From Burkholderiaceae bacterium (GTDB lineage Bacteria > Pseudomonadota > Gammaproteobacteria > Burkholderiales > Burkholderiaceae_E): DNA of 38,687 bases. The notes beneath the pieces are model-generated. The model had not been told where the DNA came from, made no database searches, and was given only the letters and a program-made list of their open reading frames with translations. The position numbers and the translations under genes are program-made. Positions 3,982 through 36,136 of this stretch are shown piece by piece. Numbering within the stretch: the first letter of the stretch is position 1; each line of letters starts with the position of its first letter. The stretch lies in contig JAHEMI010000012.1 in the NCBI GenBank assembly GCA_024643785.1, positions 2,008 to 40,694 of the forward strand, written 5' to 3'.

Positions 3982-3993
3982 CCGCCAGGACGA

Positions 3994-4024
3994 ACCCGGC
4001 GCCACGGTTTCAGGGGTGCCGGGT
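3994..4024. terminator. Possible hairpin between convergent CoA-transferase and GST genes
   Basis: A 7-bp perfect stem ACCCGGC (3994-4000) / GCCGGGT (4018-4024) lies in the 48-base gap between the two convergent stop codons. No T-run follows on either strand, so an intrinsic terminator is only suggested by position. Confidence 0.25.
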
Positions 4025-4029
4025 GCTCG

Positions 4030-4941: not shown

Positions 4942-8730
<3,789 letters not shown>

Positions 8731-16156: not shown

Positions 16157-16167
16157 CGCGCTTCTCC

Positions 16168-17688: not shown

Positions 17689-17704
17689 TGGATGCTCCCT
17701 CGCT

Positions 17705-20700: not shown

Positions 20701-21481
20701 TCCGGGTCTGGGGCACGTTCGAGCCCCAGGCAATCAGGAAGGTCGAGTTGTACCAGTCGGCCGACTCGGGAACGTCGGTCTGCTCGCCCCAGGTCTGCGG
20801 CGAGGACGGTGGCAGGTCGCAGTACCAGTCGTAGAAGCTCATCGACACGCCGCCCAGCAGGCTCAGGTAGCGGCTGCCGGCGGCATACGAGACCATCGAC
20901 ATCGCGGGGATCGGCGAGAAACCGATCAGCCGATCAGGGCCGTACTTCTTGATGGTGTAGGCGTTGGCCGCGGCGACGATCGTGTTCACCTCATCCCAGC
21001 TCGCGCGCACGAAGCCGCCCAGGCCGCGCCGGCTCTGGTAATCGCGGCGCTTGGCGTCGTCGCCGACCACCGCTGCCCAGGCGTCGACCGGATCGAGGCT
21101 CTGGCGGGCCTCGCGCCAGTGCTTGAGCAGGCGCGCCCGGACCATCGGATACTTGACCCGGTTGGCGCTGTAGAGATACCAGCTGTAGCTCGCGCCGCGC
21201 GAGCAGCCGCGCGGCTCGTGGTTGGGAAGGTCGGGGCGGGTGCGGGGATAGTCGGTCTGCTGCGTCTCCCAGGTGACGATCCCGCCCTTGACATAGACCT
21301 TCCACGAGCACGAACCGGTGCAGTTCACGCCGTGGGTCGAGCGCACGATCTTGTCATGCTGCCAGCGCGCCCGGTAGGAGTCCTCCCAGGTGCGGTCTTC
21401 GCCGGTGGTCACGCCGTGGCCGCCGGAGAATTTCTCCTTGGGCTGGGCAAAGAACGTCAGGCGGTCGAGGAAATGGCTCAT
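17705..21481 (-). CDS. narG: Respiratory nitrate reductase alpha subunit (molybdenum catalytic subunit)
   Basis: The 1258-residue subunit reduces nitrate to nitrite on the cytoplasmic side of the inner membrane. The N-terminal FS0 cluster ligands are His50, Cys54, Cys58 and Cys93 (STHGVNCTGSCSW, EPRGCSRG), with histidine as the first ligand as in other NarG. Asp222 in SFYDWYCDLPPSSPQTWG is the expected molybdenum ligand. Molybdopterin-guanine dinucleotide segments such as IAWGSNVPQTRTPDAHF and IIGAAMNHWYHSDMNYRG follow. The C-terminus has the VEVFNTNGA-type MGD-binding fold. No Tat signal is present, consistent with a cytoplasmic enzyme. ATG at 21481 has GGAG seven bases upstream, 30 bases after narK2. 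Length is close to E. coli NarG (1247). Confidence 0.99.
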   Translation of the reverse strand: MSHFLDRLTFFAQPKEKFSGGHGVTTGEDRTWEDSYRARWQHDKIVRSTHGVNCTGSCSWKVYVKGGIVTWETQQTDYPRTRPDLPNHEPRGCSRGASYSWYLYSANRVKYPMVRARLLKHWREARQSLDPVDAWAAVVGDDAKRRDYQSRRGLGGFVRASWDEVNTIVAAANAYTIKKYGPDRLIGFSPIPAMSMVSYAAGSRYLSLLGGVSMSFYDWYCDLPPSSPQTWGEQTDVPESADWYNSTFLIAWGSNVPQTRTPDAHFFTEVRYKGAKTVAVTPDYSEVAKLADLWLHPKQGTDAAVAMAMGHVILKEFYFGAQPSAYFDDYARRYTDLPMLVTLREQDTPAGKALVPDRYLRASDFGDALGQDNNPDWKTVGFDEQGRITLPNGSIGFRWGAAGRGDAGKWNLEARDARNGADASMQLTLLGGEHEVSTVAFPYFGGIVNEHFPNNLKTDVLLRSVPVRRLALGEGAGQVLVATVFDLLAANYGIDRGLGGDDTAASYDDDSPYTPAWQEPITGVPREQVIAVARQFADNAAKTEGKSMIIIGAAMNHWYHSDMNYRGIINMLMLCGCIGKSGGGWAHYVGQEKLRPQTGWTVLAFALDWIRPPRQQNSTSFFYAHTDQWRYERLTMGEVLSPLADRDAYQGSMIDYNVRAERMGWLPSAPQLQTNPLQVVRDAQAAGVDPREHVVSGLKDGSLRMSCEDPDHPNNWPRNLFVWRSNLLGSSGKGHEYFLKHLLGTTNGIQGKDLGVDDAKPQEVEWHEKAPEGKLDLLVTIDFRMSTTCLYSDIVLPTATWYEKNDLNTSDMHPFIHPLSTAVDPAWEARSDWEIYKGFAKKFSEVCVGHLGVEKEVVLTPLMHDTPAELAQPLDVKDWKRGEVELIPGKTAPQIAVVERDYPNTFKRFTALGPLLGKLGNGGKGIGWNTDDEIAALGQLNGTVAADGVTQGMPRIESDIDAAEVVLMLAPETNGHVAVKAWEALSKVTGREHAHLALHREDEKIRFRDIQAQPRKIISSPTWSGLESEKVSYTAGYTNVHELIPWRTLSGRQQFYQDHPWMRAFGETLVVYRPPVDLKTVDDVKDKKPNGNTELVLNFITPHQKWGIHSTYTDNQMMLTLSRGGPVIWLSEDDARRGGIVDNDWIEVFNTNGAIAARAVVSQRVKPGMLMMYHAQEKIINTPGSEITGTRGGIHNSVTRAVLKPTHMIGGYAQLSYGFNYYGTIGTNRDEFVVVRKMAKVDWLDEPAQAATPAVTAA

Positions 21482-21511
21482 GACAAGTCTCCAGCTTGGA
21501 TTGCTTGGTGC

Positions 21512-22897
21512 TCAGCAGGGCATCGGGGCGTTGCGGCGGCTGTAGTACCACCAGGTCATGACGACGCAGGTCACGTAGAAGACGATGAAACCGTAAAGCG
21601 CCGCCTCCGGCCCGCCGGTCAGCGAGATCGAGGTGCCGTAGCTCTTGGGAATGAAGAACCCGCCGTAGGCGCCGATCGCGGAGGTGAAGCCGAGCACTGC
21701 GGCGGCCTCCTTGTTGGCCTCGCGCACGACCCGCTCCTGGACCTCGGGGCCCTTGCCCGCGGCTTCAGCCTGGCGGCCGGCGAGAAAGATCACCGGGATC
21801 ATCCTGAAGGTCGAGCCGTTACCCACGCCGGTGGCGGCAAAGAGCGCCATGAAACAGACCAGGAAGCCGTAGAAGTTGCCGCCGACACCGCCCTTGGGCA
21901 GGAAGAACAACACCCCCGCGACCCCGACGATCATCACCAGGAACGTCCAGAAGGTCACCCGGGCGCCGCCGAGCTTGTCGGAGAGCCAGCCACCGGCCGG
22001 CCGGATAGCCGCGCCAACCAGTGGTCCGAGCCAGGCGTACTGGAGCGCATTGACGCCAACGAACTGGCTCTTGATCAGCAGCGGGAAACCGGCGGAATAG
22101 CCGATGAACGAACCGAAGGTGCCGAGGTAGAGCCAGCACATCAGCCAGTTGTGCTTGCGTCGGAAGATCACCGCCTGGTCGGCAAATGACGCCTTGGCCT
22201 CGGCCAGGTCGTTCATCCCGAACCACGCCGCAATCGACGAGACGATAATGAACGGCACCCAGATGAAGCCGGCGTTCTGCAGCCACAACGGCACCTGCTG
22301 GCCCGCCTTGGTGATCATCTGGGGCTCGCCGCCCAGCGCGCCGAAGATCCCGGCCGTGATGGTCAGCGGAACCGCCAGCTGCACGATCGACACCCCGAGG
22401 TTGCCCAGGCCGGCGTTCAGGCCGAGCGCGGTGCCCTTCTGGGCCTTGGGATAGAAGAAGTTGATGTTGGCCATCGACGAGGCGAAGTTGCCGCCGCCGA
22501 AGCCGCAGAGCAGCGCCAGGATCACGAACACCTCGTAGGAGGTGCTGGTGTCCTGCACCGCAAAACCGATCCCCAGCGCCGGCAGCACCAGCGAGGCGGT
22601 CGAGATTGCGGTCCAGCGCCGGCCGCCGAAGATCGGCACGGCAAAGGAATAGAAGATCCGCAGCGTCGCCCCGCACAGCGCAGGCAGGGCCGCCAGCCAG
22701 AAGAGCTGGTTGGTGGAGAACTTGAACCCCACCGCCGGCAAGTTGACCACCACCACCGACCAGACCATCCAGACGACGAAGGCCAGTGTCAGCGCCGGAA
22801 TCGAGATCCAGAGGTTGCGCCGGGCGATCGCACTGCCCTCCTGCGCCCAGAACTTCTCGTCCTCTGGATTCCAGTGTTCAATCAGATGGTTTGCCAT
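21512..22897 (-). CDS. narK2: Nitrate/nitrite transporter NarK2 (NarK type II, MFS)
   Basis: The 461-residue protein has about 12 membrane segments and the two glycine-rich nitrate signatures of the NNP family: GGGNFASSMANINFFYP with GTALGLNAGLGNLGVS (about residues 135-170), and AAAVLGFTSAIGAYGGFF (about 400-417). It resembles E. coli NarK, so nitrate/nitrite exchange is expected for this partner, while the neighbouring NarK1-like protein would be a nitrate/proton symporter. That division of labour is known from Paracoccus and Pseudomonas NarK1/NarK2. ATG at 22897 lies six bases after the narK1 stop; the GAGGT ribosome binding site overlaps that stop. narG follows after 30 bases. Confidence 0.93.
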   Translation of the reverse strand: MANHLIEHWNPEDEKFWAQEGSAIARRNLWISIPALTLAFVVWMVWSVVVVNLPAVGFKFSTNQLFWLAALPALCGATLRIFYSFAVPIFGGRRWTAISTASLVLPALGIGFAVQDTSTSYEVFVILALLCGFGGGNFASSMANINFFYPKAQKGTALGLNAGLGNLGVSIVQLAVPLTITAGIFGALGGEPQMITKAGQQVPLWLQNAGFIWVPFIIVSSIAAWFGMNDLAEAKASFADQAVIFRRKHNWLMCWLYLGTFGSFIGYSAGFPLLIKSQFVGVNALQYAWLGPLVGAAIRPAGGWLSDKLGGARVTFWTFLVMIVGVAGVLFFLPKGGVGGNFYGFLVCFMALFAATGVGNGSTFRMIPVIFLAGRQAEAAGKGPEVQERVVREANKEAAAVLGFTSAIGAYGGFFIPKSYGTSISLTGGPEAALYGFIVFYVTCVVMTWWYYSRRNAPMPC

Positions 22898-22903
22898 GGC
22901 GGA

Positions 22904-24175
22904 TTACCTCGTTGCAGGTGTCTTGGTGAGGCCCTTGGGGGCAGTGGGTGCCAGCAGGTCGGCAGTGCGGTATTCGGTGCGATACATCCAGATCAGCGAG
23001 ACCCAGACCACGCCGTACATCAGCATGAAGGCGCTCGAGCGAATGCCGGTCACGTCCATCAGCGCGCCGAACAGGATCGGCAGCAGGAACCCGCCCATGC
23101 CGCCAGCCAGTCCGACGACGCCCGAGACGACGCCGATGTTGCCGGGGTACTCGTCGGCGATGTACTTGAAGGTGCTGGCCTTGCCGAACGCCCAGGCAAT
23201 GCCCAGGATGAACATCAGCGCGGTGAACAGGTAGACGTTCAGGCCGAGGTGAAAACTCACCGGACCATTGACGGTGTTGATGGTCAGGTCGGTCTGGGGA
23301 TAGGAGAGCAGGAACAGGCAGATCCAGCTCACCCACATCACCCACCAGGTGACCGAGTGTGCGCCGAAGCGGTCCGACAGCCAGCCACCGACCGCACGCA
23401 GCACGCCGCCGGGAAGCGAGAAGGCGGCGGCCAGCAGCGCTGCAGTCTGGATACTGAGCCCGAACTCGCCGACGTAGTACTGGACCATCCACAGCGACAG
23501 TGCGACGTAGCCGCCGAAGACGATCGAGTAGTACTGGCAGTACTTGAGCACGGTCGGGTCCTTGAGTACCCTCAGTTGCTGGCGCCAGGTCACCGACTTG
23601 GCCTCCTCGACGTGGGCCGGATCGTGGTGGCTGAAGAGCCAGAACAGGATCGCGGTGCCGAGCATCACGCCGGCGTAGACGCGGGGAACCATCGTCCAGC
23701 CGAAGCCGAGCATGATCGCCGGGGCCACGAACTTGTTGAGCGCGGCACCAGCGTTGCCGGCGCCGAAGATGCCCATCGCGAAGCCCTGGTTCTTGGCGCT
23801 GAACCAGCGGGCAACATAGGGGGTTCCGACCGAGAACGATGCTCCGGCCACGCCGACGAACAGCCCGACGGTCAGGAACTGCCAATACTGGTCGGCGTAG
23901 GTGATCAGCCAGATCGGGATGATCGTTACCACCATCGTGCCCATCAGCACGATGCGGCCGCCGAAGCGGTCGGTCCACATCCCCAGCGGCACCCGCAGCA
24001 GCGAGCCGCTGAGCACCGGCATCGAGGTGAGCAGGCCGAACTGGGTGGCGTTCAGGTCGAGGTGGGCCTTGATGGGAATGCCGATCACGGCAAACATCAT
24101 CCAGACCATGAAGCAGGTCGTGAACGATAAGGTGCTTACTATCAGTACCGAGATGGCATCGCGCTGCCTTGTCAT
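22904..24175 (-). CDS. narK1: Nitrate transporter NarK1 (NarK type I, MFS)
   Basis: The 423-residue protein has about 12 membrane segments and starts MTRQRDAISVLIVSTLSFTT, with the MFS motif A region LRVPLGMWTDRFGGR (about residues 60-74) and the nitrate signatures FGAGNAGAALNKFVAP and GVVSGVVGLAGGMGGFLLP. This is the NarK1 branch, thought to bring nitrate in with protons. It is the first gene of the nar-ubi run, downstream of a 182-base gap after narL. ATG at 24175 has GGAGAG (24187-24182) six bases upstream. Fumarate-nitrate-reductase (FNR/ANR) control would be expected, but I found no clear TTGAT-N4-ATCAA box. Confidence 0.92.
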   Translation of the reverse strand: MTRQRDAISVLIVSTLSFTTCFMVWMMFAVIGIPIKAHLDLNATQFGLLTSMPVLSGSLLRVPLGMWTDRFGGRIVLMGTMVVTIIPIWLITYADQYWQFLTVGLFVGVAGASFSVGTPYVARWFSAKNQGFAMGIFGAGNAGAALNKFVAPAIMLGFGWTMVPRVYAGVMLGTAILFWLFSHHDPAHVEEAKSVTWRQQLRVLKDPTVLKYCQYYSIVFGGYVALSLWMVQYYVGEFGLSIQTAALLAAAFSLPGGVLRAVGGWLSDRFGAHSVTWWVMWVSWICLFLLSYPQTDLTINTVNGPVSFHLGLNVYLFTALMFILGIAWAFGKASTFKYIADEYPGNIGVVSGVVGLAGGMGGFLLPILFGALMDVTGIRSSAFMLMYGVVWVSLIWMYRTEYRTADLLAPTAPKGLTKTPATR

Positions 24176-24357
24176 GAACCGCTCTCCAGATTGGAATCAC
24201 GCCCATACGGGCGATAGGCCAATGTACGGTGGCGCGAGCCGGCGCAACATTCACCAGAGGTAGCGCTAGGAGCGATGCAGAAGAACTATGTGGCTGGCGC
24301 CACATAGTTCGAAAGGAGTAGTCCGGGGGCAGCGACGGCGGCGGCCGCGCCGCCCGG
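24176..24357 (-). promoter_or_regulatory. narL-narK1 intergenic region with NarL-heptamer matches
   Basis: This 182-base gap is the natural place for the promoter of the nar-ubi run. Two minus-strand sequences fit the NarL heptamer TACYYMT: TACTCCT (24320-24314) and TACCTCT (24262-24256). A short palindrome GCCC-ATAC-GGGC lies at 24201-24212, 26 bases before the narK1 ATG. TACATT on the minus strand (about 24226) is a possible -10 element with a poor -35. About 0.2 heptamer matches are expected by chance in this length, so the pair is suggestive only. A strong hairpin is listed separately. Confidence 0.4.
24283..24310 (-). terminator. Perfect 12-bp hairpin downstream of narL
   Basis: GAACTATGTGGC and its exact reverse complement GCCACATAGTTC are separated by four bases. 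On the minus strand it lies 47 bases after the narL stop and is followed by TTCTGC, a weak T-tract. It probably ends or attenuates the narXL transcript before the narK1 promoter. The AT-rich outer stem is unusual for a terminator in this GC-rich DNA, so a protein-binding palindrome is an alternative. Confidence 0.5.
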
Positions 24358-25002
24358 TCAGGTGATGCCCTGCTCGACGGCGTAGACCGCGGCCTGCACC
24401 CTGGAGTTGAGGTTGAGCTTGCGCAGGATATGCTGGACGTGGACCTTGACGGTGGTTTCGGCGATCCCCAGGGAACGGGCGATTTCCTTGTTGCTGGCCC
24501 CGGCTGCGATCTCACGCAGGATCTCGCGCTCGCGCGGCGAGAGGATCTCTTCGGTCTGTCCGTTTGTCGCCGCAGGCGAACTGGCGGCACGCAGCGCCCT
24601 GACCAGCTTGTGGGTCAGCTCCGGAGATACCACTGCTTCGCCGGCCAGGGCGCGCCTGATCGCGGCCGCCAGGAACTCGCTCTCGACGGTCTTCAGCAGG
24701 TAGCCCGCCGCGCCCGCGGTCAGCGCCCGGGAGAGGTCATCCTCGTCCTCGCTGACCGTCAGCAGGATCACGCGCACGCCCGGGACCGCCTCCCTGATCG
24801 CGGCGATTGCGTCGACGCCATTGACGCCCGGCATGTGGTTGTCGAGCAGCACCACGTCGGGCCGCAGCTCGACGACGCGGCGCAGCGCCTCCCCGGCATC
24901 ACCGGCCTCGCCGACCACGGCAAACGACGGCTCGCCCGCGAGCAGCGCCTTCAGACCCCGCCGAAACAGCGTGTGGTCATCGACCAACATGATCCTGATC
25001 AC
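24358..25002 (-). CDS. narL: Nitrate/nitrite response regulator NarL
   Basis: The 214-residue protein has a receiver domain (about 1-120) with the phospho-acceptor Asp54 (VVLLDNHMPG), acidic pocket Asp8-Asp9 and Lys104, and a C-terminal LuxR-type helix-turn-helix (about 148-210) with LSPREREILREIAAG and NKEIARSLGIAETTVKVHVQ. This is the NarL/FixJ layout. Being directly after narX and next to nar genes makes the nitrate role convincing. The start is GTG at 25002, overlapping the narX stop in a GTGA junction. Phospho-NarL would be expected to act on the intergenic region before narK1, which has two heptamer matches. Confidence 0.93.
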   Translation of the reverse strand: MIRIMLVDDHTLFRRGLKALLAGEPSFAVVGEAGDAGEALRRVVELRPDVVLLDNHMPGVNGVDAIAAIREAVPGVRVILLTVSEDEDDLSRALTAGAAGYLLKTVESEFLAAAIRRALAGEAVVSPELTHKLVRALRAASSPAATNGQTEEILSPREREILREIAAGASNKEIARSLGIAETTVKVHVQHILRKLNLNSRVQAAVYAVEQGIT

Positions 25003-26924
25003 GATCCCGTCGCTCCTGTGCCTTCCTTGTCTACCCCGGCTGCGGTTGCCGGCGCCGTTGCGCCGAGCGTCAGCGTGACCTCGGTGCCCTGGCCGGGCGC
25101 CGACCTGACCTCGAGCTGCGCGCCGATGCGCTCCGAGCGCTCGCGCATTATGCGCAGCCCGACGTGGGTCTCGCGCGCCAGCTCATTGTCGAACTCGAAA
25201 CCCGAACCGTCGTCGCGCACCCGAAAACGCCAGCGCGGCTCCTGCTCGACGTCGACCATCACCCCCGAGGCGCCGGAGTGCTTGCGCACGTTGGACAAGG
25301 CCTCCTGGATCACGTGCAGCACCTGGATCTGCACCTCGGGCGCCAGCGGCATGCCATTGCCGCTGATCGTGAGGCTGCTTTGCAACGAAGTCTGGTGCTC
25401 GAATTTGGTCAATGTCGAGCGGATCGCCCGCTCGATGTCCTCGGTATGGGTCTTGGTGCGGAAGTGGATCAGCAACTCGCGCACGTCGTTGTTGCTCTCG
25501 CGCACGCCGGCGTCGATCTCGTCGACGACCGCGCCGATCGCCTCCTCGTCGCCCGTCACCAGCGCATCGCGCAGCAGCTTGACCTGGATCTTGAGGAATG
25601 CCAGCGACTGCGCGATCGAGTCATGCAGCTCCTGCGCCAGCATCGAGCGCTCCTCGAACACCGCGGCGTGCCGCTCATCCTCGCCGAGGCGCAGGCTCTC
25701 GATCGCCGCCGCCAGGTGGCTCGCCATCGCCTGCAGCAGGCTGCGCTCCTCGTCGCCCAGGGCGCGCTGCGCGCGATAGAAGAGGTCGATTTCGCCGACC
25801 AGCCGCTGATGCGAGCGCACCGGCACCGAAACCACGGTGGCAAATCCCGCCCGCGCGCAGTTGTTGCGTTGCAGGCGCGGTTCGCCATGGACCGGGATCA
25901 CGCGCAGCCCCGCGTCGGGCTCCGCGACGCCGCACTGGCACTCGCCGACGTGCAGGCAACGCTCTTCCTCGACCATGGCGGGCGGCAGGCCTTGGCTGGC
26001 CAGCAGCATCAGGCGCTCATTGGAAGCGTCAGACCAGCGCACCGCGGCGGCGTCGGCGCCGGCGATCCGCCGGATTCGCGCCGCGAAACCGCTTGCCAGC
26101 GCCTCGAGCGTGGACGCTTCCGCCACCAGCGAACTGATCTCGTAGAGCGCTTCCAGGCGGCTCTTCTGCTGGGCCAGGCTGGCGGTCTTCTGGGCGACGC
26201 GGCCCTCGAGGTCCTGGTAGAGCTCGCCCAGGGACGCGGCCATCTCGTTGAAGCCCGCGGCCAGCGTGCCCAGCTCATCGCCAGAATCGATCGCGACCCG
26301 GGCATCGAACTCGCTGCGCCGGACCCGTCCGGTTGCAGCCGTCAGCCGGCTGAGCGGCTCCAGCAGGAACAGGTGCAGGGCGTAGGCGGTGGTGACGGTG
26401 GTGACCACGACCAGCCCCAGCATGAACATCTGCACGCCATGCAGGATCGCCGTCCAGCGCGAGAGGTGGGCCTCGATCGAGGCCACGAAGCGATCGATCA
26501 GCGCGACGAAGCTGTCGGCTTCCCCCAGCCCGACCTTGCCGATGCCGCCATCAGCCGGCAGCCAGCGCGGCTCCAGTTCCTGCCAGCGGCCCTTCACCCG
26601 GGTAAAGGCTTCCCTGACCTGCGGATCCCAGGGGACTATCAGCGGCCGCGAGGCATCACCGGATTCGAGGGTGGCCAGATTGCTCCTGAAGCGCGCGACC
26701 TGAATCGCCAGCGCCTCATCCTCGCCATGCGACGAGAGCAGTGCGATCCGGTAGGTGGCCATCCGCATCCGGCCGGCCTCGTTGATTGCGGCGGCGCCGC
26801 CCTCGAGCTGCCAGGTCACCCACAGGGTCAGTCCGATCGACCCCATGGCTGCCACCAGCAGCGCGGCGCCGATCAATGCGAGCTTCGCCGCAATCGAGCG
26901 GAAATGCGGTTTCATGGGCGACAT
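24999..26924 (-). CDS. narX: Nitrate/nitrite sensor histidine kinase NarX
   Basis: The 641-residue inner-membrane kinase has a first membrane helix (about 13-37), a periplasmic domain beginning with the P-box AINEAGRMRMATYRIAL, in which Arg54 corresponds to the nitrate-binding arginine of E. coli NarX, a second helix (about 162-188), HAMP (about 188-240) and a central GAF-like region. That region has the NarX cysteine cluster (Cys323, 329, 331, 356). The HPK7-type phospho-acceptor His434 is in QELHDSIAQSLA, and the ATPase domain ends at about 620. ATG at 26924 is used; another in-frame ATG lies three codons on. It overlaps narL. A short Gly/Thr-rich C-terminal tail follows. Confidence 0.94.
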   Translation of the reverse strand: MSPMKPHFRSIAAKLALIGAALLVAAMGSIGLTLWVTWQLEGGAAAINEAGRMRMATYRIALLSSHGEDEALAIQVARFRSNLATLESGDASRPLIVPWDPQVREAFTRVKGRWQELEPRWLPADGGIGKVGLGEADSFVALIDRFVASIEAHLSRWTAILHGVQMFMLGLVVVTTVTTAYALHLFLLEPLSRLTAATGRVRRSEFDARVAIDSGDELGTLAAGFNEMAASLGELYQDLEGRVAQKTASLAQQKSRLEALYEISSLVAEASTLEALASGFAARIRRIAGADAAAVRWSDASNERLMLLASQGLPPAMVEEERCLHVGECQCGVAEPDAGLRVIPVHGEPRLQRNNCARAGFATVVSVPVRSHQRLVGEIDLFYRAQRALGDEERSLLQAMASHLAAAIESLRLGEDERHAAVFEERSMLAQELHDSIAQSLAFLKIQVKLLRDALVTGDEEAIGAVVDEIDAGVRESNNDVRELLIHFRTKTHTEDIERAIRSTLTKFEHQTSLQSSLTISGNGMPLAPEVQIQVLHVIQEALSNVRKHSGASGVMVDVEQEPRWRFRVRDDGSGFEFDNELARETHVGLRIMRERSERIGAQLEVRSAPGQGTEVTLTLGATAPATAAGVDKEGTGATGS

Positions 26925-27379: not shown

Positions 27380-28840
27380 TCAGCGGCGCCAGAAGGCCGC
27401 CGTGAAGATGACCGCGAAAGTCAGCAGCTCGAGCCGGCCGGCGATCATCGCGATTGCCAGGACCCAGGTCTGGAAATCGCTGAGGTGCGCGTAGTTGCCG
27501 CTCGGCCCGAGCATTCCGAGCGCCGGACCGATGTTGTTGACGATCGAAACCACGCCAGTGAGCGCCGAGGTGAAATCCAGCCCGGTGGCCAGCATCACGA
27601 AGGTCAGCACCGTGATCGTCACCCCGTAGAGCAGCATGAAGCCGAGCACCGCCATGATCACCTTGGTGGGGATCGGCTGGCCGCTGATCGCCAGGGGCTT
27701 GACCTGCTTGGGGTGGACGATGCGCGCCAGTTCGCGTCTGGTCTGCTTGAGCAGGATCAGCGCCCGGATCATCTTGATGCCGCCGCCGGTCGAACCGGCC
27801 GATGACGCCACGCAGCCCAGCAGCAGAATCCACATGCCGCCGAAGATCGGCCAGATCGCGTAGTCGGTGCTGGCATAGCCGGTCGAGGTCCCGAGCGCGA
27901 CCGCATTGAAGAGCGCATGGCGCAGCGCCAGCCAGAAGTCCGGATACAGGTGCTCGTGGCTGTAGAGGTAGAACGCGAGGATCAGCCCGCTGGCGATGAT
28001 CAGCGACCAGCTGGCATAGGCCTCGTTGTCATCGAAATAGGGCTTGAGCGAACGTTGCCGCAGCGCACTGAAGTGGGTTGCGAAGTTGGTGACGGCGATC
28101 ATCATGAAGATCCCGAGCACCACCTCGACGCCCACCGAATTGAAACTCTCGATACTGGCGTCGCGGGTCGAGAATCCGCCCAGCGCTAGCGCCGAGAACG
28201 CGTGCGCCACCGATTCGAACCAGTTCATCCCGACCAGGTGCAGGGCGATGATGCAGGCGGCGGTCAGGGCGGCGTAGATCAGCCACAGGTAGCGGGCGGT
28301 TTGCGCGACCCGCGGCGTGAGTTTGCCTTCCTTCATCGGCCCCGGGGTCTCGGCCTTGAAGAGCTGCATGCCGCCGACCCCGAGCAGCGGCAGGATCGCG
28401 ACCGCCAGCACGATGATGCCCATGCCGCCGAACCATTGCAGCGCGTGGCGCCAGATGTTCAGCGACTGGGGCAGGTATTCCAGCCCGGTGATTACCGTCG
28501 CCCCGGTGGTGGTCAGTCCCGAGCTCGCCTCGAAGAACGCATCGGTGAAGCTCATTGCGGGCAGGGCGATCAGGAACGGTATCGCCGCCAGCGCGGTCAT
28601 CGAGAACCAGCCCAGGACCACCAGCAGCGAGCCTTCGCGAGGATGGAGTTCGCGCTTGCTGCCCCGGGTCAGCAGGCGCAGCGCAAGCCCGCCCACGAGG
28701 GATCCGGCGGCCGCGAGGATGAAGCTCATGTGGATCCCGTCTTCGACCGCCAGCGACCAGGCGAGCGGCAGCGCGAAGGTGCCGGCGAACATCATCCAGA
28801 GGCCGGCGAGGTCGTGGGCAATCGCTGGAAAGCGGTTCAT
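27380..28840 (-). CDS. trkH: Trk potassium uptake membrane subunit TrkH
   Basis: The 486-residue protein is the K+-translocating subunit of the Trk system, with four pore loops resembling K+ channel filters. The first is visible as EASSGLTTTGATVI (about residues 103-116); later ones contain GGFSTRDASI, GTSTGYAST and NNIGPALGMLG. N-terminal helices (FAGTFALPLAWSLA...) and the C-terminal AVIFTAAFWRR complete the normal length (E. coli TrkH 483). It works with TrkA, encoded just upstream with a 39-base gap, in the inner membrane. It is the last gene of the def-to-trkH run. A 131-base gap separates it from the DUF3567 gene. Confidence 0.95.
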   Translation of the reverse strand: MNRFPAIAHDLAGLWMMFAGTFALPLAWSLAVEDGIHMSFILAAAGSLVGGLALRLLTRGSKRELHPREGSLLVVLGWFSMTALAAIPFLIALPAMSFTDAFFEASSGLTTTGATVITGLEYLPQSLNIWRHALQWFGGMGIIVLAVAILPLLGVGGMQLFKAETPGPMKEGKLTPRVAQTARYLWLIYAALTAACIIALHLVGMNWFESVAHAFSALALGGFSTRDASIESFNSVGVEVVLGIFMMIAVTNFATHFSALRQRSLKPYFDDNEAYASWSLIIASGLILAFYLYSHEHLYPDFWLALRHALFNAVALGTSTGYASTDYAIWPIFGGMWILLLGCVASSAGSTGGGIKMIRALILLKQTRRELARIVHPKQVKPLAISGQPIPTKVIMAVLGFMLLYGVTITVLTFVMLATGLDFTSALTGVVSIVNNIGPALGMLGPSGNYAHLSDFQTWVLAIAMIAGRLELLTFAVIFTAAFWRR

Positions 28841-28879: not shown

Positions 28880-30271
28880 TCAGAAGAACCCGACGCCGAC
28901 CTGGAACAGCTTCTCGAGCTTGGGCAGCGTGCGCTTGTTGGTCACGAACACGATCACATGGTCCTCGGACTCGATCACCGTGTCGTGATGCGCGATGACG
29001 ACTTCCGATGGCCGTTCGCCACCGCCACGCACGATCGCGCCGATCATCGCGTCCTTGGGCAGGTCGATCTCGTCGATCCGGCGCCCGACCACCTTGGATG
29101 ACTTGGTGTCGCCATGGGCGATCGCCTCGAGTGCTTCGGCCGCGCCGCGGCGCAACGAGTGCACCGCCACGACGTCGCCCCGACGGACGTGCTTGAGCAG
29201 TCCGCCGATGGTGGTCTGCGCCGGCACCACCGCGATGTCGATCTGGCTGCCCTGCATCAGGTCGGCGTAGGCCTGGCGGTTGATCAGCGCGATCACCCGG
29301 CGCGCGCCCATGCGCTTGGCGAGCATGCACGACATGATGTTGGTTTCGTCGTCGTTGGTCAGCGCCACGAACAGGTCGGTTTCGGCCACGCCCTCGTCGA
29401 GCAGCAGGTCCTCGTCGGTCGAGTCGCCGTTGAGCACCACCGCTGACGACGGCAATTCGCCGGCGAGATACTCGCAGCGGCGACGCTCGGCTTCGATCAC
29501 CTTGATGTTGTAGTTCGAGCCCAGTGCGCGCGCCAGCCGTAGCCCGATGTTGCCGCCGCCGGCGATGATCACCCGGCGCACCGGCTTCTCGACGCGGCGC
29601 AGGTCGGCCAGCGCGGTGCGGATGTGTTCCGAAGCCGCCAGCATGAAGACCTCGTCGCCGGGCTCGATCATCGTTTCGCCGTCCGGGCGCACCGGGCGGT
29701 CGCCGCGGAATATCGCCACCACCCTCATGTCGACTTTGGGGTGGTGCTTGCGCAGGTCGCTCACCGGGTGCGACACCAGCGGCCCGCCGGCGTAGGCGCG
29801 CACCGCGATCAGGCAGACCCGTCCGTCCGCGAACTCGAGCACCTGCAGGGCTTCCGGGAACTGGATCAGCTTGCTGACGTAGTCGGTGACCGTCTGCTCC
29901 GGGCAGATCAGGTGGTCGACCTGGAAGCCGTCGACACCGACGATCTCGGGGTGGTCGAGGAACTCGGGCGCCCGGATCCGCGCGATGCGGGTCGGAATGT
30001 TGAAAACCTTGGCGGCAAGCTGGCAGGCCACCAGGTTGGTTTCGTCGCGCGCTGCGGTCGCGATCAGCATGTCGGCGTCTTCCGCCCCGGCGGCCTGCAG
30101 CACCGGGACATGGGTGCCGTTGCCCGCGACCGTGCGCAAATCGAGCCGGTCCTGCAGCTCATTGAGTTGCTGCAGGTTGGTGTCGATGACGGTGATGTCG
30201 TTGCGCTCGGATACCAGGTTTTCGGCGACCGAAACGCCTACCCTTCCTGCGCCAAGGATGATGATTTTCAA
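28880..30271 (-). CDS. trkA: Trk potassium transporter NAD-binding subunit TrkA
   Basis: The 463-residue peripheral membrane protein has two RCK modules, each a Rossmann NAD(H)-binding domain plus an RCK-C domain. The dinucleotide motifs are ILGAGRVGVSVAENL (about residues 5-19) and [16 protein letters not shown] (about 235-250). Conserved acidic residues such as ITVIDTN follow. It gates TrkH in response to nucleotides. Length matches E. coli TrkA (458). The start is TTG at 30271, whose TTGA overlaps the stop of the ntrX-like gene; no ATG precedes the glycine motif in frame. The trkA-trkH pair directly behind an NtrY/NtrX-type pair is a recurring betaproteobacterial order. Confidence 0.95.
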   Translation of the reverse strand: MKIIILGAGRVGVSVAENLVSERNDITVIDTNLQQLNELQDRLDLRTVAGNGTHVPVLQAAGAEDADMLIATAARDETNLVACQLAAKVFNIPTRIARIRAPEFLDHPEIVGVDGFQVDHLICPEQTVTDYVSKLIQFPEALQVLEFADGRVCLIAVRAYAGGPLVSHPVSDLRKHHPKVDMRVVAIFRGDRPVRPDGETMIEPGDEVFMLAASEHIRTALADLRRVEKPVRRVIIAGGGNIGLRLARALGSNYNIKVIEAERRRCEYLAGELPSSAVVLNGDSTDEDLLLDEGVAETDLFVALTNDDETNIMSCMLAKRMGARRVIALINRQAYADLMQGSQIDIAVVPAQTTIGGLLKHVRRGDVVAVHSLRRGAAEALEAIAHGDTKSSKVVGRRIDEIDLPKDAMIGAIVRGGGERPSEVVIAHHDTVIESEDHVIVFVTNKRTLPKLEKLFQVGVGFF

Positions 30272-31002
30272 GAATTGTTCTTGCGGTATGCGCCGCCGGC
30301 AAGGTCGATGCCGAGCTGCTTGAGCTTGCGATAAAGGTGGGTGCGCTCCAGACCGGTGCGCTCCGCCACGCGGGTCATGCTGCCGTTCTCACGGGTCAGG
30401 TGATGTTCGAAGTAGGCGCGCTCGAACGCGTCGCGGGCCTCGCGCAGCGGCAGTTCGAGCGGCAGATCGGCGACCGCCACCACGGCCGGCGCATCCGCGC
30501 CATTGCCGTCGAACAGCGCGGCATCGCCGCGGCCGGCCAGCGCCCCGGCGCCGCTCACAGCCCCCGCCGAATCGCCCTGATGGCGCTGCGCAGCCGGTGG
30601 CAGGCCATCGCGGAACAGCCGTCCGGTGACTTGCTGTTCGCGCCGGTGCAGGCCCTTCTCCACCGCCCGCAGCAGCTTCTGCATGGTGATCGGCTTTTCG
30701 AGGAAATCGATCGCGCCGATCTTGGTCGCCTCCACGGCGGTGTCGATCGTCGCGTGCCCCGACATCATGATCACCGGCATGGTCAGCTTGCCGCTGGCGG
30801 ACCATTCCTTGAGTAGCGAAACGCCATCGGTGTCAGGCATCCAGATGTCGAGCAGCACCAGGTCGAGATGATTTTCGTCGCGCAAGGTGCGCGCGTCGCG
30901 GGCACTTTCGGCGAGCAATACCGTATGCCCCTCGTCACCGAGGATTTCGGAAAGCAGCTCGCGAATGCCGATTTCGTCGTCGACTACGAGGATGTCGGCC
31001 AT
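30268..31002 (-). CDS. NtrX-like response regulator with receiver and Fis-type HTH but no AAA+ domain
   Basis: The 244-residue protein has a receiver domain (about 1-120) with acidic Asp8-Asp9, phospho-acceptor Asp52 (VLLDIWMPDTDG) and Lys102, very like NtrX. A low-complexity Ala/Gly/Asp linker (about 125-185) follows, then ELPLREARDAFERAYFEHHL and a Fis-type helix-turn-helix (MTRVAERTGLERTHLYRKLK, about 210-235). The roughly 230-residue sigma-54-interacting AAA+ domain of canonical NtrX is absent, so it should not act as a sigma-54 activator; activation or repression by DNA binding is inferred. No frameshift explains this: the remnant is only 60 residues. It follows ntrY by 32 bases and overlaps trkA (TTGA). 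Confidence 0.85.
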   Translation of the reverse strand: MADILVVDDEIGIRELLSEILGDEGHTVLLAESARDARTLRDENHLDLVLLDIWMPDTDGVSLLKEWSASGKLTMPVIMMSGHATIDTAVEATKIGAIDFLEKPITMQKLLRAVEKGLHRREQQVTGRLFRDGLPPAAQRHQGDSAGAVSGAGALAGRGDAALFDGNGADAPAVVAVADLPLELPLREARDAFERAYFEHHLTRENGSMTRVAERTGLERTHLYRKLKQLGIDLAGGAYRKNNS

Positions 31003-31034: not shown

Positions 31035-33398
31035 CTAACTATTCTCCCCGCTTTTCGCGAGTTTCGTAAAGTGCAGGGACACTTGTGCTCCCCGACCAGG
31101 CTCGCCACCAACGTTTGAAGCGTCGATGCGTGCGCCGTGTTCCTCGACGATCTTGCGCACGATCGCCAGTCCGAGACCGGTTCCCCGGGGCTTGGTGGTT
31201 ACGTAGGGCTCGAAGATGCGGCCCAGCACCGCCGGAGCAAATCCCGGACCGTTGTCGCGCACCTGCAGGCGCGCGGTTCGCGCCCCGGACGCGGAGACGA
31301 CCGTCGCGGTCGACAGCACCACCTCTGCATCTTCCGACTTGCTGATCGCCTCGAGCGAATTCTTGACCAGATTGTGCACCACCTGGCGCAACTGCCCGCT
31401 GTCGGCCATCACCAGCGGCAGCTCGGGGTCGAGTTCGAGGCGTAACTGCGCGCCGACTTCCGGACCGGCGTAGAGCCGTGCCACCTCCTCGACGAGCTCG
31501 TTGAGGTCGAGTTGCACCAACACCGCCGAAGGCAGCCGGGCATAGTCGCGGAACTCGTCGACCATCTGCTTGAGCGAACTGACCTGCTGGATGATCGTCC
31601 GGGCGCTGCTCTCGAGCAGCTTGTCCTCGGCGGGCGGCAGCCGGCCGGCGAGCTTGGCACGCAGCCGCTCGGTGGCCAGCTGGATCGGCGTGAGCGGATT
31701 CATGATCTCATGGGCCAGGCGCCGGGCGACGTCGGCCCAGGCCAGCGCGCGTTGCGCGGAGACCATCTCGGTGATGTCGTCGAAGACGATGACGTGGCCG
31801 GCCCGGCGCTCCGGCAGTATCGATCCGCGCGCGAGGATCGTTTGCTCCGGGCTCAGCCCGGGGCCGAGCCGGACGCTGCCGCCGCCCGAACCGGCATCGG
31901 CCGAGCCGCTGTGGGGGGCGTGCTTCAGGGCGAACTGGCGCTGCCAGCTGGCATCGCCGGCCAATGCCAGCTCCTGGAATGCCAGCTCGACCTGTTCGGC
32001 GATCTGTCCCAGGCCGGGAATCTCGGTAATCGCCTTGCCCAGATGCTGGCCCAGCCCGGCGCCCAGGATGCGCTCAGCGCCGGCGTTGCCGAGCGTCAGG
32101 CGAAATTCCGAATCGAGCACCAGCACGCCGGCGGTCAGGTTGGCGAGCACGCTCTCGAGCCGGGCGTTGGCGCGCTTGAGTTCGCGCTGGTTGCGGTCGA
32201 CCTGCTGGCGGGCGTCGGCGAGCTGACGCATCATCGCGTTGAACGATTCGGTCAGGACCCCCAGCTCGTCGCGGCCACTGTAGGTCTTGACCGGGCGGAA
32301 GTCTCCGCCGGCGACCGCGCGGGTCCCGGCCGCGAGCATCGACAGCGGGCCGGTCAGCCACCCCGAGAGCAGGAACGCCGCCGCGATCGAGGCGAAGGCC
32401 GTCAGGAAGAAGATCAGCGTCAGCGTGACGTAGAACAGGCGCTTGAGACCGACCCGCGACTCGAGCAGCTGCTGGTAGTCGCTGCGGCCCTGCGAGATCG
32501 CCTCGGCGCTCTCGGCCAGCGCCCTTGAGACCGGTTGCAGCAGGTGCAGGTAGCGGCCGTCATCGGGGCGCTGGGCGGGCGCGCCAATGCCCACGATGAC
32601 GCGCAGTCGCAACCCCACCGCAGTTCCCAGGCCCGGTTCGCGGCCATCGGTGTGCACTGGCGGCGCCATCCCGGCGCCTGTTTCCCCGGTGCTCGCGCGC
32701 GGCGCGTCGGATTCGAACTCCGCCACCATCCTGGTAAAGCGGGCGCGACGCATCATCTCGACGCCCGGCAGATCGGGGACGATGCTGGCAAAACGCCCCC
32801 CGCTCGCGGTGATGATCCGGTTGGCGCCGGTGAGGATCAGCACGTCCTGGAGCCCGTATTGTTCGCGCATGCGCTGCAGCGCGAACGACCAGTTGTCACG
32901 CGGGGTGTCAGCCAGTTCGGTGGCCATGGCGCGGGCGGTCGCGGAAACGTCGGAGCGCATCGCGTCGAGCGTTGCGCGGCCGAGGTTGAGTCCGGAATCC
33001 AGCGCTCGTTCCAGCGGCACATCGAACCAGGACTCGATCGAACGGCCGACGAACTGCACCGCCACGATGTAGATCAGCAGCAGCGGGACGATGGTCATCA
33101 CCGTGAACGACACCGCCATGCGCGTCATCAGCCGCGCGCCGAAGACCCCGCGGCGGTAGCGCGACAGCAGCCGGCGGGTCATTTCGAGTACCAGCACGAC
33201 CAGGCAGGTCCCGACCGCGGCCGTCAGCCAGAACAGCAGCTGGTAGCTGCCCTGGAACAGCTCGGTGTTCGAGGTCGCGGTCGCCAATAGCACCAGCAGC
33301 ACCATGGCCAACAGCACCGCGGTGAACAGCGACCAGCGCAACAGCCGCCCTACGGCGCTGTTTTCGGCGTCTCGGCTATGAACGGGAATCTCTTCCAT
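31035..33398 (-). CDS. ntrY: NtrY-type membrane sensor histidine kinase
   Basis: The 787-residue protein has about four membrane segments: three in the first 120 residues, and one at about 322-348. A long periplasmic-type stretch (120-320) leads to a HAMP domain (about 345-400), a PAS domain (about 410-545) and a HisKA domain with phospho-acceptor His563 in ARRLAHEIMNPLTPIQLA, then an ATPase domain with DNGPGFAP and GTGLGLAIVRKIVEEHG. The HEIMNPLTPI H-box is that of NtrY. The signal is not known; NtrY proteins are linked to nitrogen and redox state. Its partner is the AAA-less regulator downstream. The ATG at 33398 lies 49 bases inside the DUF4390 gene. Confidence 0.9.
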   Translation of the reverse strand: MEEIPVHSRDAENSAVGRLLRWSLFTAVLLAMVLLVLLATATSNTELFQGSYQLLFWLTAAVGTCLVVLVLEMTRRLLSRYRRGVFGARLMTRMAVSFTVMTIVPLLLIYIVAVQFVGRSIESWFDVPLERALDSGLNLGRATLDAMRSDVSATARAMATELADTPRDNWSFALQRMREQYGLQDVLILTGANRIITASGGRFASIVPDLPGVEMMRRARFTRMVAEFESDAPRASTGETGAGMAPPVHTDGREPGLGTAVGLRLRVIVGIGAPAQRPDDGRYLHLLQPVSRALAESAEAISQGRSDYQQLLESRVGLKRLFYVTLTLIFFLTAFASIAAAFLLSGWLTGPLSMLAAGTRAVAGGDFRPVKTYSGRDELGVLTESFNAMMRQLADARQQVDRNQRELKRANARLESVLANLTAGVLVLDSEFRLTLGNAGAERILGAGLGQHLGKAITEIPGLGQIAEQVELAFQELALAGDASWQRQFALKHAPHSGSADAGSGGGSVRLGPGLSPEQTILARGSILPERRAGHVIVFDDITEMVSAQRALAWADVARRLAHEIMNPLTPIQLATERLRAKLAGRLPPAEDKLLESSARTIIQQVSSLKQMVDEFRDYARLPSAVLVQLDLNELVEEVARLYAGPEVGAQLRLELDPELPLVMADSGQLRQVVHNLVKNSLEAISKSEDAEVVLSTATVVSASGARTARLQVRDNGPGFAPAVLGRIFEPYVTTKPRGTGLGLAIVRKIVEEHGARIDASNVGGEPGRGAQVSLHFTKLAKSGENS

Positions 33399-33934
33399 TC
33401 GGTCTGCAGGTTCCAGTCGCGATTGGTCAGCGCGTCAATCTGGAAGGGTTTGGGAAGTTGCGAAGTATCGAGTCGCAGGCGCAGTTGCGCCTCGTAGGTT
33501 GCGCCCGGTTTCAGCGCTTCGACCTCCATGACCCGCCAGCCGCGAATCAGCGCCATCGCACGCACCGCCTCGTTGAGGGTCGGGAACTGGATCTGATAGG
33601 CGCCGATGGCCAGGCGGTACTGGGAGGTCAGCGGATGGTAGGAGAGCCGATAGCTCCGGCTGGCGGTGACCGTGCGTTCATCCCACCAGTACCAGCGCGG
33701 CTTGACCAGTTCGAACTCGGCCACGAAATACAGCGCGACGCCGCGCTGGACCGCATCCTCGAGACGGACCGAGAGCGGGACCGCGAAGTCGGCCGACAAC
33801 TGCCAAGCGTCGCCCTCGACGGTCGGCTCGATGCGTACGCTGGTGACCTCGATGACCTCTGAACCGCGGGCCGCCGGCATCCCGCCCAACAGCACCGCCA
33901 CCAGGGCCAGTGCCTGGGCGAGACGAAAAATCAA
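33350..33934 (-). CDS. DUF4390 domain-containing exported protein
   Basis: The 194-residue protein starts with a hydrophobic stretch and a likely signal peptidase site (LALVAVLLGGMPAARGSE, about residues 8-25), then a beta-rich domain with VALYFVAEFELVKPRWYWWDE and LSYHPLTSQYRL, matching DUF4390. Family members sit between rsmB and ntrY in many betaproteobacteria and have no known function; the signal peptide suggests the periplasm, where it might affect the sensory part of NtrY (inference). The start is TTG at 33934, overlapping the rsmB stop (TTGA). The 3' end overlaps the start of ntrY by 49 bases, supporting translational coupling of rsmB, DUF4390 and ntrY. Confidence 0.87.
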   Translation of the reverse strand: MIFRLAQALALVAVLLGGMPAARGSEVIEVTSVRIEPTVEGDAWQLSADFAVPLSVRLEDAVQRGVALYFVAEFELVKPRWYWWDERTVTASRSYRLSYHPLTSQYRLAIGAYQIQFPTLNEAVRAMALIRGWRVMEVEALKPGATYEAQLRLRLDTSQLPKPFQIDALTNRDWNLQTEWKRFPFIAETPKTAP

Positions 33935-35256
33935 GCGCTCTTCTCTAACATCGCGTAGAAAAACCCGTCGTGATCCCGATTGGGATCCGAGCGGGGCAGC
34001 AACTGGTCGACCGGCTCGGGCGCCTCGCTTCCCTCAAACCGCCAGACCAAGTCGCGTCTAATGGCATCACGGTGCGTGCGCCGGAAACTGTCAACCACCC
34101 CCTCGCCCTCGGCACGAAACACCGAGCACGTGGCATAGAGCAATTTACCACCCACGCGCAGCAGCGGCCAAAGCTGCGCCAGGATTTCTCCCTGGCGCGC
34201 CGAAAGTGTCGCGAGATCGCTACGGCGGCGCAGCCAGCGCGCATCGGGGTGGCGGCGCACTATTCCCGAGGCAGTGCAGGGGGCATCGACCAGGATGCGG
34301 TCGAACTGGACCCCGTCCCACCAGGCGCGCGGCTCGAGCGCCGAGCCCTCCTGCAGCCGGGCGCTCAGGCCCAGGCGGGCGAGGTTCTCGGCGACGCGCG
34401 CCAGCCGCTCCGGGGCGACGTCGAGCGCGGTCACAGCGCAGTCGGCGAGCTCGAGGATGTGGGTCGTCTTGCCCCCGGGCGCGGCACAGGCGTCGAGCAC
34501 CCTCATGCCGTCGGCGACATCGAGCAACGGAGCCGCCAGTTGCGCGCCGGCGTCCTGGACCGACACCGCCCCGGCGGCAAACTCCGGCAACGCCGCCACC
34601 GGACTGGCGCTGTCGAGGACCAGCGCCTGGGGTCCTACCGGGCGCGCGTTCACCCCGGTAGCAGTGAGCAGCGCCAGGTATTCGTCGCGTGCGAGTCGGC
34701 GCCGGTTGACGCGCAGGGTCAGTGGCGGCGTCTGGTTCGACGCCGTCAGGATGCTCTCCCAGTGTCCGGGATGGTCGCGCCGCAGCTGTTCAATCCACCA
34801 GCGCGGGAAATTCCAGCGCGCCTCGTCCTTGCGCTGCGCCCGCGCCAGCAAGTCGTCGCTCTCGCGCACGAAACGACGCAGCGTCGCGTTGAGAAAACCG
34901 GCCGCGGGCTCGGTCACACGCTGCAGCCGCGCGCCGGCAACCGCCTGGTCGACCGTGATGGCCGCGGCCCGCAGCGGGTCGATCAGTTGCGCCAGGGCCA
35001 CGATCTGGAGCGCCGCGACCCGCGCCGCCGGGGCGTGGGCGTTGAGAATCGCGGCGACCTCACGACACAGCCCGAGCTGACGGGTGCTGCGGTAGGCGAT
35101 GTCCTGCACCGCCGGCAGCGAATCGCTGGGCAGCGCCGGAGTGGCGGCGGCAATCGCCTTGCCGAGGGCCGCCGGCAGCGCGGTGCCGGCAAGCATCGCC
35201 TCGAGCGCTGCGGCCGCGACCGCAAACTCCTGCGCGAGCGCGGCGCGCGCGCTCAT
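33931..35256 (-). CDS. rsmB: 16S rRNA (cytosine(967)-C(5))-methyltransferase RsmB
   Basis: The 441-residue enzyme (also called Fmu or Sun) methylates C967 of 16S rRNA with SAM. An N-terminal NusB-like RNA-binding domain (about 5-140, with ALQIVALAQL and FLNATLRRFVRE) precedes the Rossmann methyltransferase domain (about 165-440). The SAM motif is LDACAAPGGKTTHILEL, and the two catalytic cysteines of m5C methyltransferases appear in VDAPCTASG and ATCSVFRAEG. Length is normal. The start at the ATG at 35256 is chosen; the longer frame to 35373 reads into htpX. It follows htpX by 31 bases. The end overlaps the DUF4390 start. Confidence 0.96.
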   Translation of the reverse strand: MSARAALAQEFAVAAAALEAMLAGTALPAALGKAIAAATPALPSDSLPAVQDIAYRSTRQLGLCREVAAILNAHAPAARVAALQIVALAQLIDPLRAAAITVDQAVAGARLQRVTEPAAGFLNATLRRFVRESDDLLARAQRKDEARWNFPRWWIEQLRRDHPGHWESILTASNQTPPLTLRVNRRRLARDEYLALLTATGVNARPVGPQALVLDSASPVAALPEFAAGAVSVQDAGAQLAAPLLDVADGMRVLDACAAPGGKTTHILELADCAVTALDVAPERLARVAENLARLGLSARLQEGSALEPRAWWDGVQFDRILVDAPCTASGIVRRHPDARWLRRRSDLATLSARQGEILAQLWPLLRVGGKLLYATCSVFRAEGEGVVDSFRRTHRDAIRRDLVWRFEGSEAPEPVDQLLPRSDPNRDHDGFFYAMLEKSA

Positions 35257-35287
35257 CGCAACTGCGTCCCGCCGCCCGCTCGGCGCA

Positions 35288-36136
35288 CTAGCGCACCCCG
35301 CTGGCCATGGCGAGCAGGCGGCGCACCCGCTCCTCGGGGTCGGGATGGGTCGAGAAGAGGTTCTTGATGCCATTGCCCGAGAGCGGATTCATGATCATCA
35401 TCTGGGCGGTCTCCGGGTGGGCTTCGGCCGGAGCCAGCCGGATTTCCTGGGCATAGGCGTGGATCTTCTGCAGCGCCGCAGCCAGCGATTGCGGATCGCC
35501 GCTGATCTCGGCGCCGCCGCGGTCGGCCTCGAATTCCCGTGCCCGCGAAATCGCCATCTGGATCAGCATTGCGGCGATCGGCGCCAGCAGCGCCACCGCG
35601 ATGGTTGCGATCGGGTTCGAGCGTTCGTTGGAGCCGCGCCCGCCAAAGAAGAACGCGAATTGCGCCAGGGCCGAGATCGCGCCCGCCATCGTCGCCGAGA
35701 TCGTCGAGATCAGGATGTCGCGGTGCTTGATGTGCGCCAGCTCGTGGGCCATCACGCCGCGCAACTCGCGCTCGCTGAGCGCGCGCAGGATGCCGGTGGT
35801 GGCCGCGACCGCGGCGTGCTCGGGGTTGCGGCCGGTGGCAAAGGCGTTGGGGGCAGGCTCGTCGATCAGGTAGACGCGCGGCATCGGCAGTTCGGCCCGC
35901 TGTGCCAGCTCCCTGACCATCCGATAGAACTGCGGTGCGCTGGTTTCATCGACCTCGCGGGCCTTGTACATCCGCAGCACCATCTTGTCCGAGAACCAGT
36001 AGGCGAAGAAGTTGGTCAGCACGGCGAACCCCAGGGCCATGAGCATGCCCCGCTCTCCGCCCAGGATCCCGCCGATCACGCCAAAGAGGGCGACGATCGC
36101 CGCCATCAGCAATGCCGTCTTGAACCAGTTGAACAT
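35288..36136 (-). CDS. htpX: Membrane zinc metalloprotease HtpX
   Basis: The 282-residue M48-family protease degrades damaged membrane proteins and is linked to envelope and heat stress. It has N-terminal membrane helices (about 5-25 and 32-50), the zinc motif HELAH at 131-135 ([12 protein letters not shown]), a further hydrophobic pair (about 140-200) and EFEADRGGA, where Glu203 is the likely third zinc ligand. Starting at [10 protein letters not shown] gives the normal length (E. coli HtpX 293); the longer upstream frame is poorly supported. It lies 93 bases after fmt and 31 before rsmB. A small GC-rich hairpin, CCGCTG-CCGC-CAGCGG, lies in the gap before it. Confidence 0.95.

Follow-up and report, generated by a model that had tools for sequence, protein, structure and literature searches.

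A PlrR-type NtrX response regulator that lacks the AAA+ domain, and signs of stepwise erosion of that domain among its relatives

The window, by which we mean the whole 38,687-nucleotide stretch of DNA that was analyzed, encodes a response regulator that consists of a receiver and a Fis-type HTH with no AAA+ domain between them. The protein is very probably the PlrR-type NtrX of a conserved rsmB-plrP-ntrY-ntrX(-trkA-trkH) cluster, and as such would be controlled by phosphorylation and act at sigma-70-type promoters, its AAA+ domain having been eroded and then deleted. That NtrX can lack this domain is already known from PlrSR-type NtrYX systems. A broader reading, which we hold with somewhat less assurance but still consider likely, is that NtrX of the order and the wider class erodes stepwise, losing first the GAFTGA loop and then the Walker A lysine, which leaves a shortened pseudo-ATPase domain that in the end was lost independently on at least two, and probably three or more, occasions. 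If so, the published statement on betaproteobacterial NtrX is too broad, and annotations of NtrX as "sigma-54-specific" are wrong across the group.

A two-domain NtrX in a conserved gene cluster

The regulator is encoded in a cluster with the gene order rsmB, DUF4390 gene, ntrY, ntrX, trkA, and trkH, and all six genes lie on the minus strand.

30268..31002, minus strand: ntrX / plrR-type response regulator without AAA+; receiver at residues 1-120, linker at about 121-185, Fis HTH at about 186-232, predicted phosphosite D52
31035..33398, minus strand: ntrY / plrS-type sensor kinase; NtrY_N, HAMP, PAS-like, HisKA with HEIMN, HATPase_c
33350..33934, minus strand: DUF4390 protein, the plrP homolog; PF14334, E 2.4e-53
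33931..35373, minus strand: rsmB-type 16S rRNA methyltransferase gene, the conserved upstream neighbor; PF01189, E 1.8e-52
28880..30271, minus strand: trkA, TTG start as listed; 4-base overlap with the end of ntrX
27380..28840, minus strand: trkH, potassium transporter subunit, by Pfam and NCBIfam

The ntrX open reading frame occupies exactly 30268..31002, starts with ATG, and encodes 244 amino acids. A sequence-only reading of the window had described a regulator with receiver and Fis-type HTH intact, and Pfam agrees (Response_reg at residues 4-114, E 7.7e-28; HTH_8 at 191-230, E 1.2e-6), with neither AAA nor any other family reported at E 0.001. The best NCBIfam model is NtrX (NF051870), which the protein matches with 150.3 bits against a cut-off of 600, the best stretch covering positions 1-120 of 452. 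When the window genome was searched with this profile, a second piece appeared at model positions 402-452, which correspond to the C-terminal HTH. Based on the score of 150.3 bits and the absence of an AAA family in Pfam, we file the protein with the AAA-less PlrR-type subgroup rather than with full-length NtrX, which has the central AAA+ domain and reaches 600 bits.

The region between the two domains, from residue 120 to LREARD, is 65 residues long, of which 24 are Ala or Gly, so that the earlier description of an Ala/Gly-rich linker of about 60 residues in place of the central domain is a fair one. The claim that the linker holds no remnant of Walker motifs also stands: an unfiltered HMM of the central domain, built from 40 AAA-bearing orthologs, listed no AAA+ remnant in the window NtrX. 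The best E value of this HMM in any AAA-less protein was 0.18, and its weak matches fell mostly in the HTH region. Walker A, Walker B, and the GAFTGA loop, which together characterize a bEBP, are all absent. In the AlphaFold2 model, made from 62 aligned homologs with 61 of the 80 named loci (see below) used, mean pLDDT per ten residues was 84-98 over residues 1-130, below 50 for 141-172, and 89-96 over 181-230, which predicts a disordered, flexible linker. Residues D8, D9, D52, and K103, as well as many HTH residues, are invariant among the 62 aligned homologs, and the conservation of these four suggests that the window NtrX is likely phosphorylated by NtrY.

The adjoining kinase had been called complete, and it is: Pfam finds NtrY_N, HAMP, HisKA, and HATPase_c, with PAS_4 slightly below its cut-off, and the phosphosite motif reads HEIMN. 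Directly upstream are the DUF4390 gene (plrP homolog), whose product has a hydrophobic N terminus by eye, and rsmB. PlrP has been proposed to be a periplasmic third component (PMC13001219).

To see how widely this arrangement is shared, we looked at stretches of ∼9 kb from 80 loci fetched from the order, 40 with an AAA-less and 40 with an AAA-bearing NtrX. Among the AAA-less loci, rsmB was found nearby in 39, plrP in 37, and ntrY in 38; among the AAA-bearing loci the counts were 39, 40, and 40. Both trkA (12/40 AAA-less, 9/40 AAA-bearing) and trkH (10/40 and 7/40) were seen less often, which agrees with the looser linkage of trkAH (27% and 23%) reported in PMC13001219.

Within the window, a respiratory nitrate reductase cluster adjoins trkH (15506-26924, minus strand). 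It encodes NarG-, NarH-, and NarJ-like proteins, a NarX/NarL-type kinase-regulator pair, and two MFS transporters that are NarK-like judging from their position. Two same-genus genomes (L229, L230) share this order of narG, narH, both MFS genes, and the kinase-regulator pair on the far side of trkH. A third same-genus genome (L231) has 5,952 bases before the contig end, where the sole nar match is a partial one of 44.5% to one MFS gene, and the L232 stretch (3,992 bases) is too short to tell. No match to the nar genes was seen in four 19,901-base stretches (L233-L236) that represent three further genera of the family, and the association, which is thus at most genus-level, was not used as a functional link to ntrX. 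The window also holds an ordinary gene for MetH, the B12-dependent methionine synthase (4942-8730, minus strand).

Comparison with known systems

The closest studied counterpart is the Bordetella PlrSR system of the NtrYX family, described together with the PlrP-PlrS-PlrR genetics of the same six-gene cluster in PMC13001219 (J Bacteriol 2026, doi 10.1128/jb.00521-25). There, PlrP blocks the phosphatase activity of PlrS and PlrR~P is essential. The gene order is the same (rsmB-plrP-plrS-plrR-trkA-trkH), as are the receiver plus DNA-binding domain without AAA+, Asp52, the Asn at H+4 of the kinase motif, and the 4-base overlap of plrR and trkA. The two systems come from different genera. The kinase motif is HEIKN in Bordetella and HEIMN in the window, and the plrP-plrS overlap is 4 bases in print, whereas the listed starts give 49 in the window, where the true ntrY start may lie further in than listed.

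The same paper states that beta-proteobacterial NtrX proteins lack AAA+. As cited there, Bonato et al. 2016 (FEBS J), on Herbaspirillum seropedicae NtrY-NtrX, is the source both for this statement and for the position of ntrX downstream of rsmB and the DUF4390 gene; its title, as given in that citation, names a role in nitrate assimilation in Herbaspirillum seropedicae. The ortholog from another Herbaspirillum (L046), with 250 amino acids, is AAA-less like the window NtrX.

Among solved structures, the best relatives of the receiver are PDB 5m7n (full length) and 4d6x, with E values of 3.6e-32 and 1.6e-22, both of which we take to be Brucella NtrX. The 5m7n chain has 454 residues and presumably includes the central AAA+ domain; its best stretch of alignment with the window protein covers just residues 2-120 of the latter.

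Erosion of the AAA+ domain in related NtrX

The sequence-only reading had set the window protein against a classical NtrYX that works with sigma-54, and had argued that its output logic must therefore differ. The AAA-bearing relatives lend no support to either statement, since the loop that contacts sigma-54 is missing from them too. When aligned with six paralogs from the window genome that are sigma-54 activators, none of the 40 AAA-bearing NtrX of the order had the GAFTGA loop, and neither did any of 19 NtrX sampled from other parts of the class. The latter come from 20 gammaproteobacterial loci chosen by hand, not at random, from a 140-genome match list, with the AAA-less L223 (187 aa) outside the count. 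PMC10274813 describes Caulobacter NtrX, too, as lacking GAFTGA, and states that sigma-70 promoters are the targets of some bEBPs in which this motif is missing; PMC9409073 still labels Paracoccus NtrX "sigma-54-specific".

The nucleotide-binding motifs are affected as well. The Walker A lysine is kept in one of the 40 NtrX of the order (L189) and in 11 of the 19 from the class, so that some branches of the NtrX family may still bind ATP. In the 40 proteins of the order, the D of Walker B is kept in 3 and the E in 24, and in 36 the stretch that runs between the two Walker motifs is down to 45 residues from 68. All six paralogs have the Walker A lysine, the F and T of the loop, and the DE of Walker B, with the exact GAFTGA pattern in five. 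Walker A was counted by alignment; a regular-expression scan gave chance matches in some AAA-less linkers (e.g., GRAGLAR). The Pfam model Sigma54_activat gave 240 bits with an NtrC-type paralog, 165-167 with two gammaproteobacterial NtrX, and from no reported match to 43 with five NtrX of the order. These five matched the shorter model PF14532 at 62-149 bits, and the AAA lid was above the Pfam cut-off in all of them.

Judged by its motifs, the relic domain is still recognizable and conserved, with its sigma-54 equipment and most of its ATP equipment lost. The fourth Walker A glycine is retained in 38 of the 40 proteins of the order. Together with the lid in 5/5, this is not what random sequence would look like, and the relic probably still has some role in AAA-bearing forms, perhaps a structural one, which AAA-less forms manage without. 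With loop and lysine eroded in proteins that still carry it, the domain was apparently useless for sigma-54 before being removed, at least twice. Our literature searches, which covered open-licence papers, returned no account of stepwise erosion with repeated loss; one may still be published, and the erosion series may be new.

Proposed mode of action

In the mode of action that we infer for the window NtrX, its dimerization, promoter class, and regulon included, PlrP and NtrY would set its phosphorylation. Phosphorylated NtrX would pair and bind DNA via the Fis HTH held by the flexible linker. Like RegA, PrrA, and ActR, it would act at promoters of the usual sigma-70 type and need neither sigma-54 nor ATP hydrolysis. 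Its ancestor would have had an AAA+ domain already without the sigma-54 contact loop before the deletion, and in this order the Walker A lysine would also nearly always have gone beforehand.

Loss of sigma-54 was considered as a reason for the loss of AAA+ and rejected, as rpoN was found in 41/41 genomes searched, that of the window included. Since its AAA+ domain is missing, the window NtrX cannot itself remodel sigma-54 polymerase; with rpoN in the genome, other activators might still connect it to sigma-54 indirectly. A more direct arrangement, in which NtrX still serves sigma-54 promoters through a partner, e.g., by mixing with an NtrC-type AAA+ protein, would find at least six sigma-54-activator paralogs with an intact loop position in this genome alongside rpoN. 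We consider it very improbable, however, because no AAA+ surface remains in NtrX for joining activator rings and because the loop was already gone from related AAA-bearing forms.

Ancestry of the AAA-less form

The two-domain layout had been left earlier as either a clean domain loss or an independent architecture. RegA, PrrA, and ActR consist of a receiver and a Fis-type HTH, have no AAA+ domain, and act at sigma-70 promoters, so that an unrelated regulator of this type could in principle have replaced NtrX beside NtrY. They belong to another family with another kinase, and the likeness is one of layout only. The window receiver and HTH have mean identities of 70% and 73% to the 40 AAA-bearing NtrX orthologs of the order. 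Against two NtrC-type paralogs encoded in the window genome, the values are 35% and 23%. AAA-less and AAA-bearing forms have the same upstream neighbors. (Over 149 AAA-less rows, HTH identity ranged from 12 to 100%, with one gene cut by a contig end, L037, among these.) Replacement is thus very improbable, and of the two earlier options domain loss is preferred and independent architecture disfavored.

Distribution of the AAA-less form

Whether the form is lineage-wide or unique had been posed as a check, and it proved to be lineage-wide. The three same-genus genomes searched (G001, G002, G003) all carry AAA-less forms of 248-250 amino acids at the ntrX locus, 71-88% identical to the window protein over at least residues 1-240. 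Deletion of the domain by an assembly or frame error, for which one could cite only the 179 contigs of the source genome, is therefore rejected as next to impossible, and the circumstances named earlier as refuting the AAA-less reading, such an error or relatives with AAA+ at the locus, did not arise.

In the window genome and 60 relatives, 58/61 had a match at E 1e-25 or better; the other three (G007, G014, G024), all of the window's family, gave none in this or a repeat search. That family (f1) has 34 genomes with a match, own included; leaving out G027, 33 were read, of which 32 are AAA-less and one is cut by the contig end (L037, 116 aa). All 80 named loci, the best 80 of 560 relatives, are AAA-less with 220-283 residues, a biased count because they were ranked by similarity to an AAA-less protein.

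Across the order, 390/399 genomes had a match at E 1e-30 or better and 9 had none. Among the matches listed, the 80 fetched loci cover 51 family codes. The AAA-less form accounts for 40 loci in 11 of these families (f1, f3, f4, f8, f17, f19, f24, f31, f34, f41, f49), with 193-378 residues, and the central domain is kept in 40 loci, one from each of the 40 other families and thus one genome per family read in detail, with 413-433 residues. The named rows placed inside the order in the tree lead us to infer that it corresponds to the former Betaproteobacteria. As 40 of the 51 family codes keep the central domain among the matches listed, the printed betaproteobacterial statement seems too broad. 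Class-wide, 93/140 genomes had a match at E 1e-30 and 47 had none; outside the order, every open frame listed has 424 residues or more, bar one of 198 (G498).

Several loci deserve separate mention. The AAA-less L130 and L131, from genomes of 0.8 million bases, have no ntrY detected nearby, and L156 (f41, AAA-less) has an NtrY match at just 23% identity and no plrP; we are less sure of these three as true NtrX. L223 (G498, 5486-6046, plus strand) is a 187-residue AAA-less NtrX-like protein from another order of the class, with the usual neighbors not detected. In L125 (G023, 2944-4077, minus strand), the AAA-less NtrX reaches 378 residues by way of a linker of 200 Gly/Ala/Ser/Pro-rich residues.

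Number of losses

More than one loss is seen on the gene tree, a "quick" tree of NtrY plus the NtrX receiver and HTH. With 131 rows, 63 AAA-less rows form one clade (SH-aLRT 98) that comprises f1, f3, f4, f8, f17, f19, f31, and f49 as well as 17 named loci; f24, f34, and f41 fall outside it. Four changes are needed on this tree, three of them forced by starred branches. Omission of eight long or gappy rows (L223, L137, L141, L156, L222, L130, L131, L075) gives a 123-row tree with three changes and a main clade of 58 rows (support 99.6).

AU tests were carried out with 43 of the 131 rows, hand-picked to span families, and with groups named after the first tree had been seen. A single clade of all 21 AAA-less rows was rejected (p-AU 1.3e-83), as were the main clade plus f34 (1.1e-64) and the main clade plus f24 (4.3e-5); a single loss for f24 and f34 was not rejected (p 0.0524). 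Two losses are thus supported by the tests, and three are the best tree's estimate. Further losses may be represented by f41 and by G498, whose NtrX-like protein is short (L223); both sit on long branches, and the latter is possibly another independent loss. The tree describes genes, not species, so that what looks like several losses could also come from transfer of an AAA-less gene.

A metagenome bin that carries the label Bordetella parapertussis (L041) is probably misnamed: in the tree, its NtrX and NtrY are placed next to G006 within f1, the window's family, instead of with Oligella, the Alcaligenaceae row.

Implications for the NtrX family

Annotations frequently treat NtrYX as a sigma-54 system, and the motif survey suggests that this does not hold across the group. 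In the AAA-less forms, one sees what NtrX retains once the rest is lost, namely the receiver and the Fis HTH. Pairs of related genomes with and without the relic AAA+ domain provide a means to ask what function, if any, remains to the relic.
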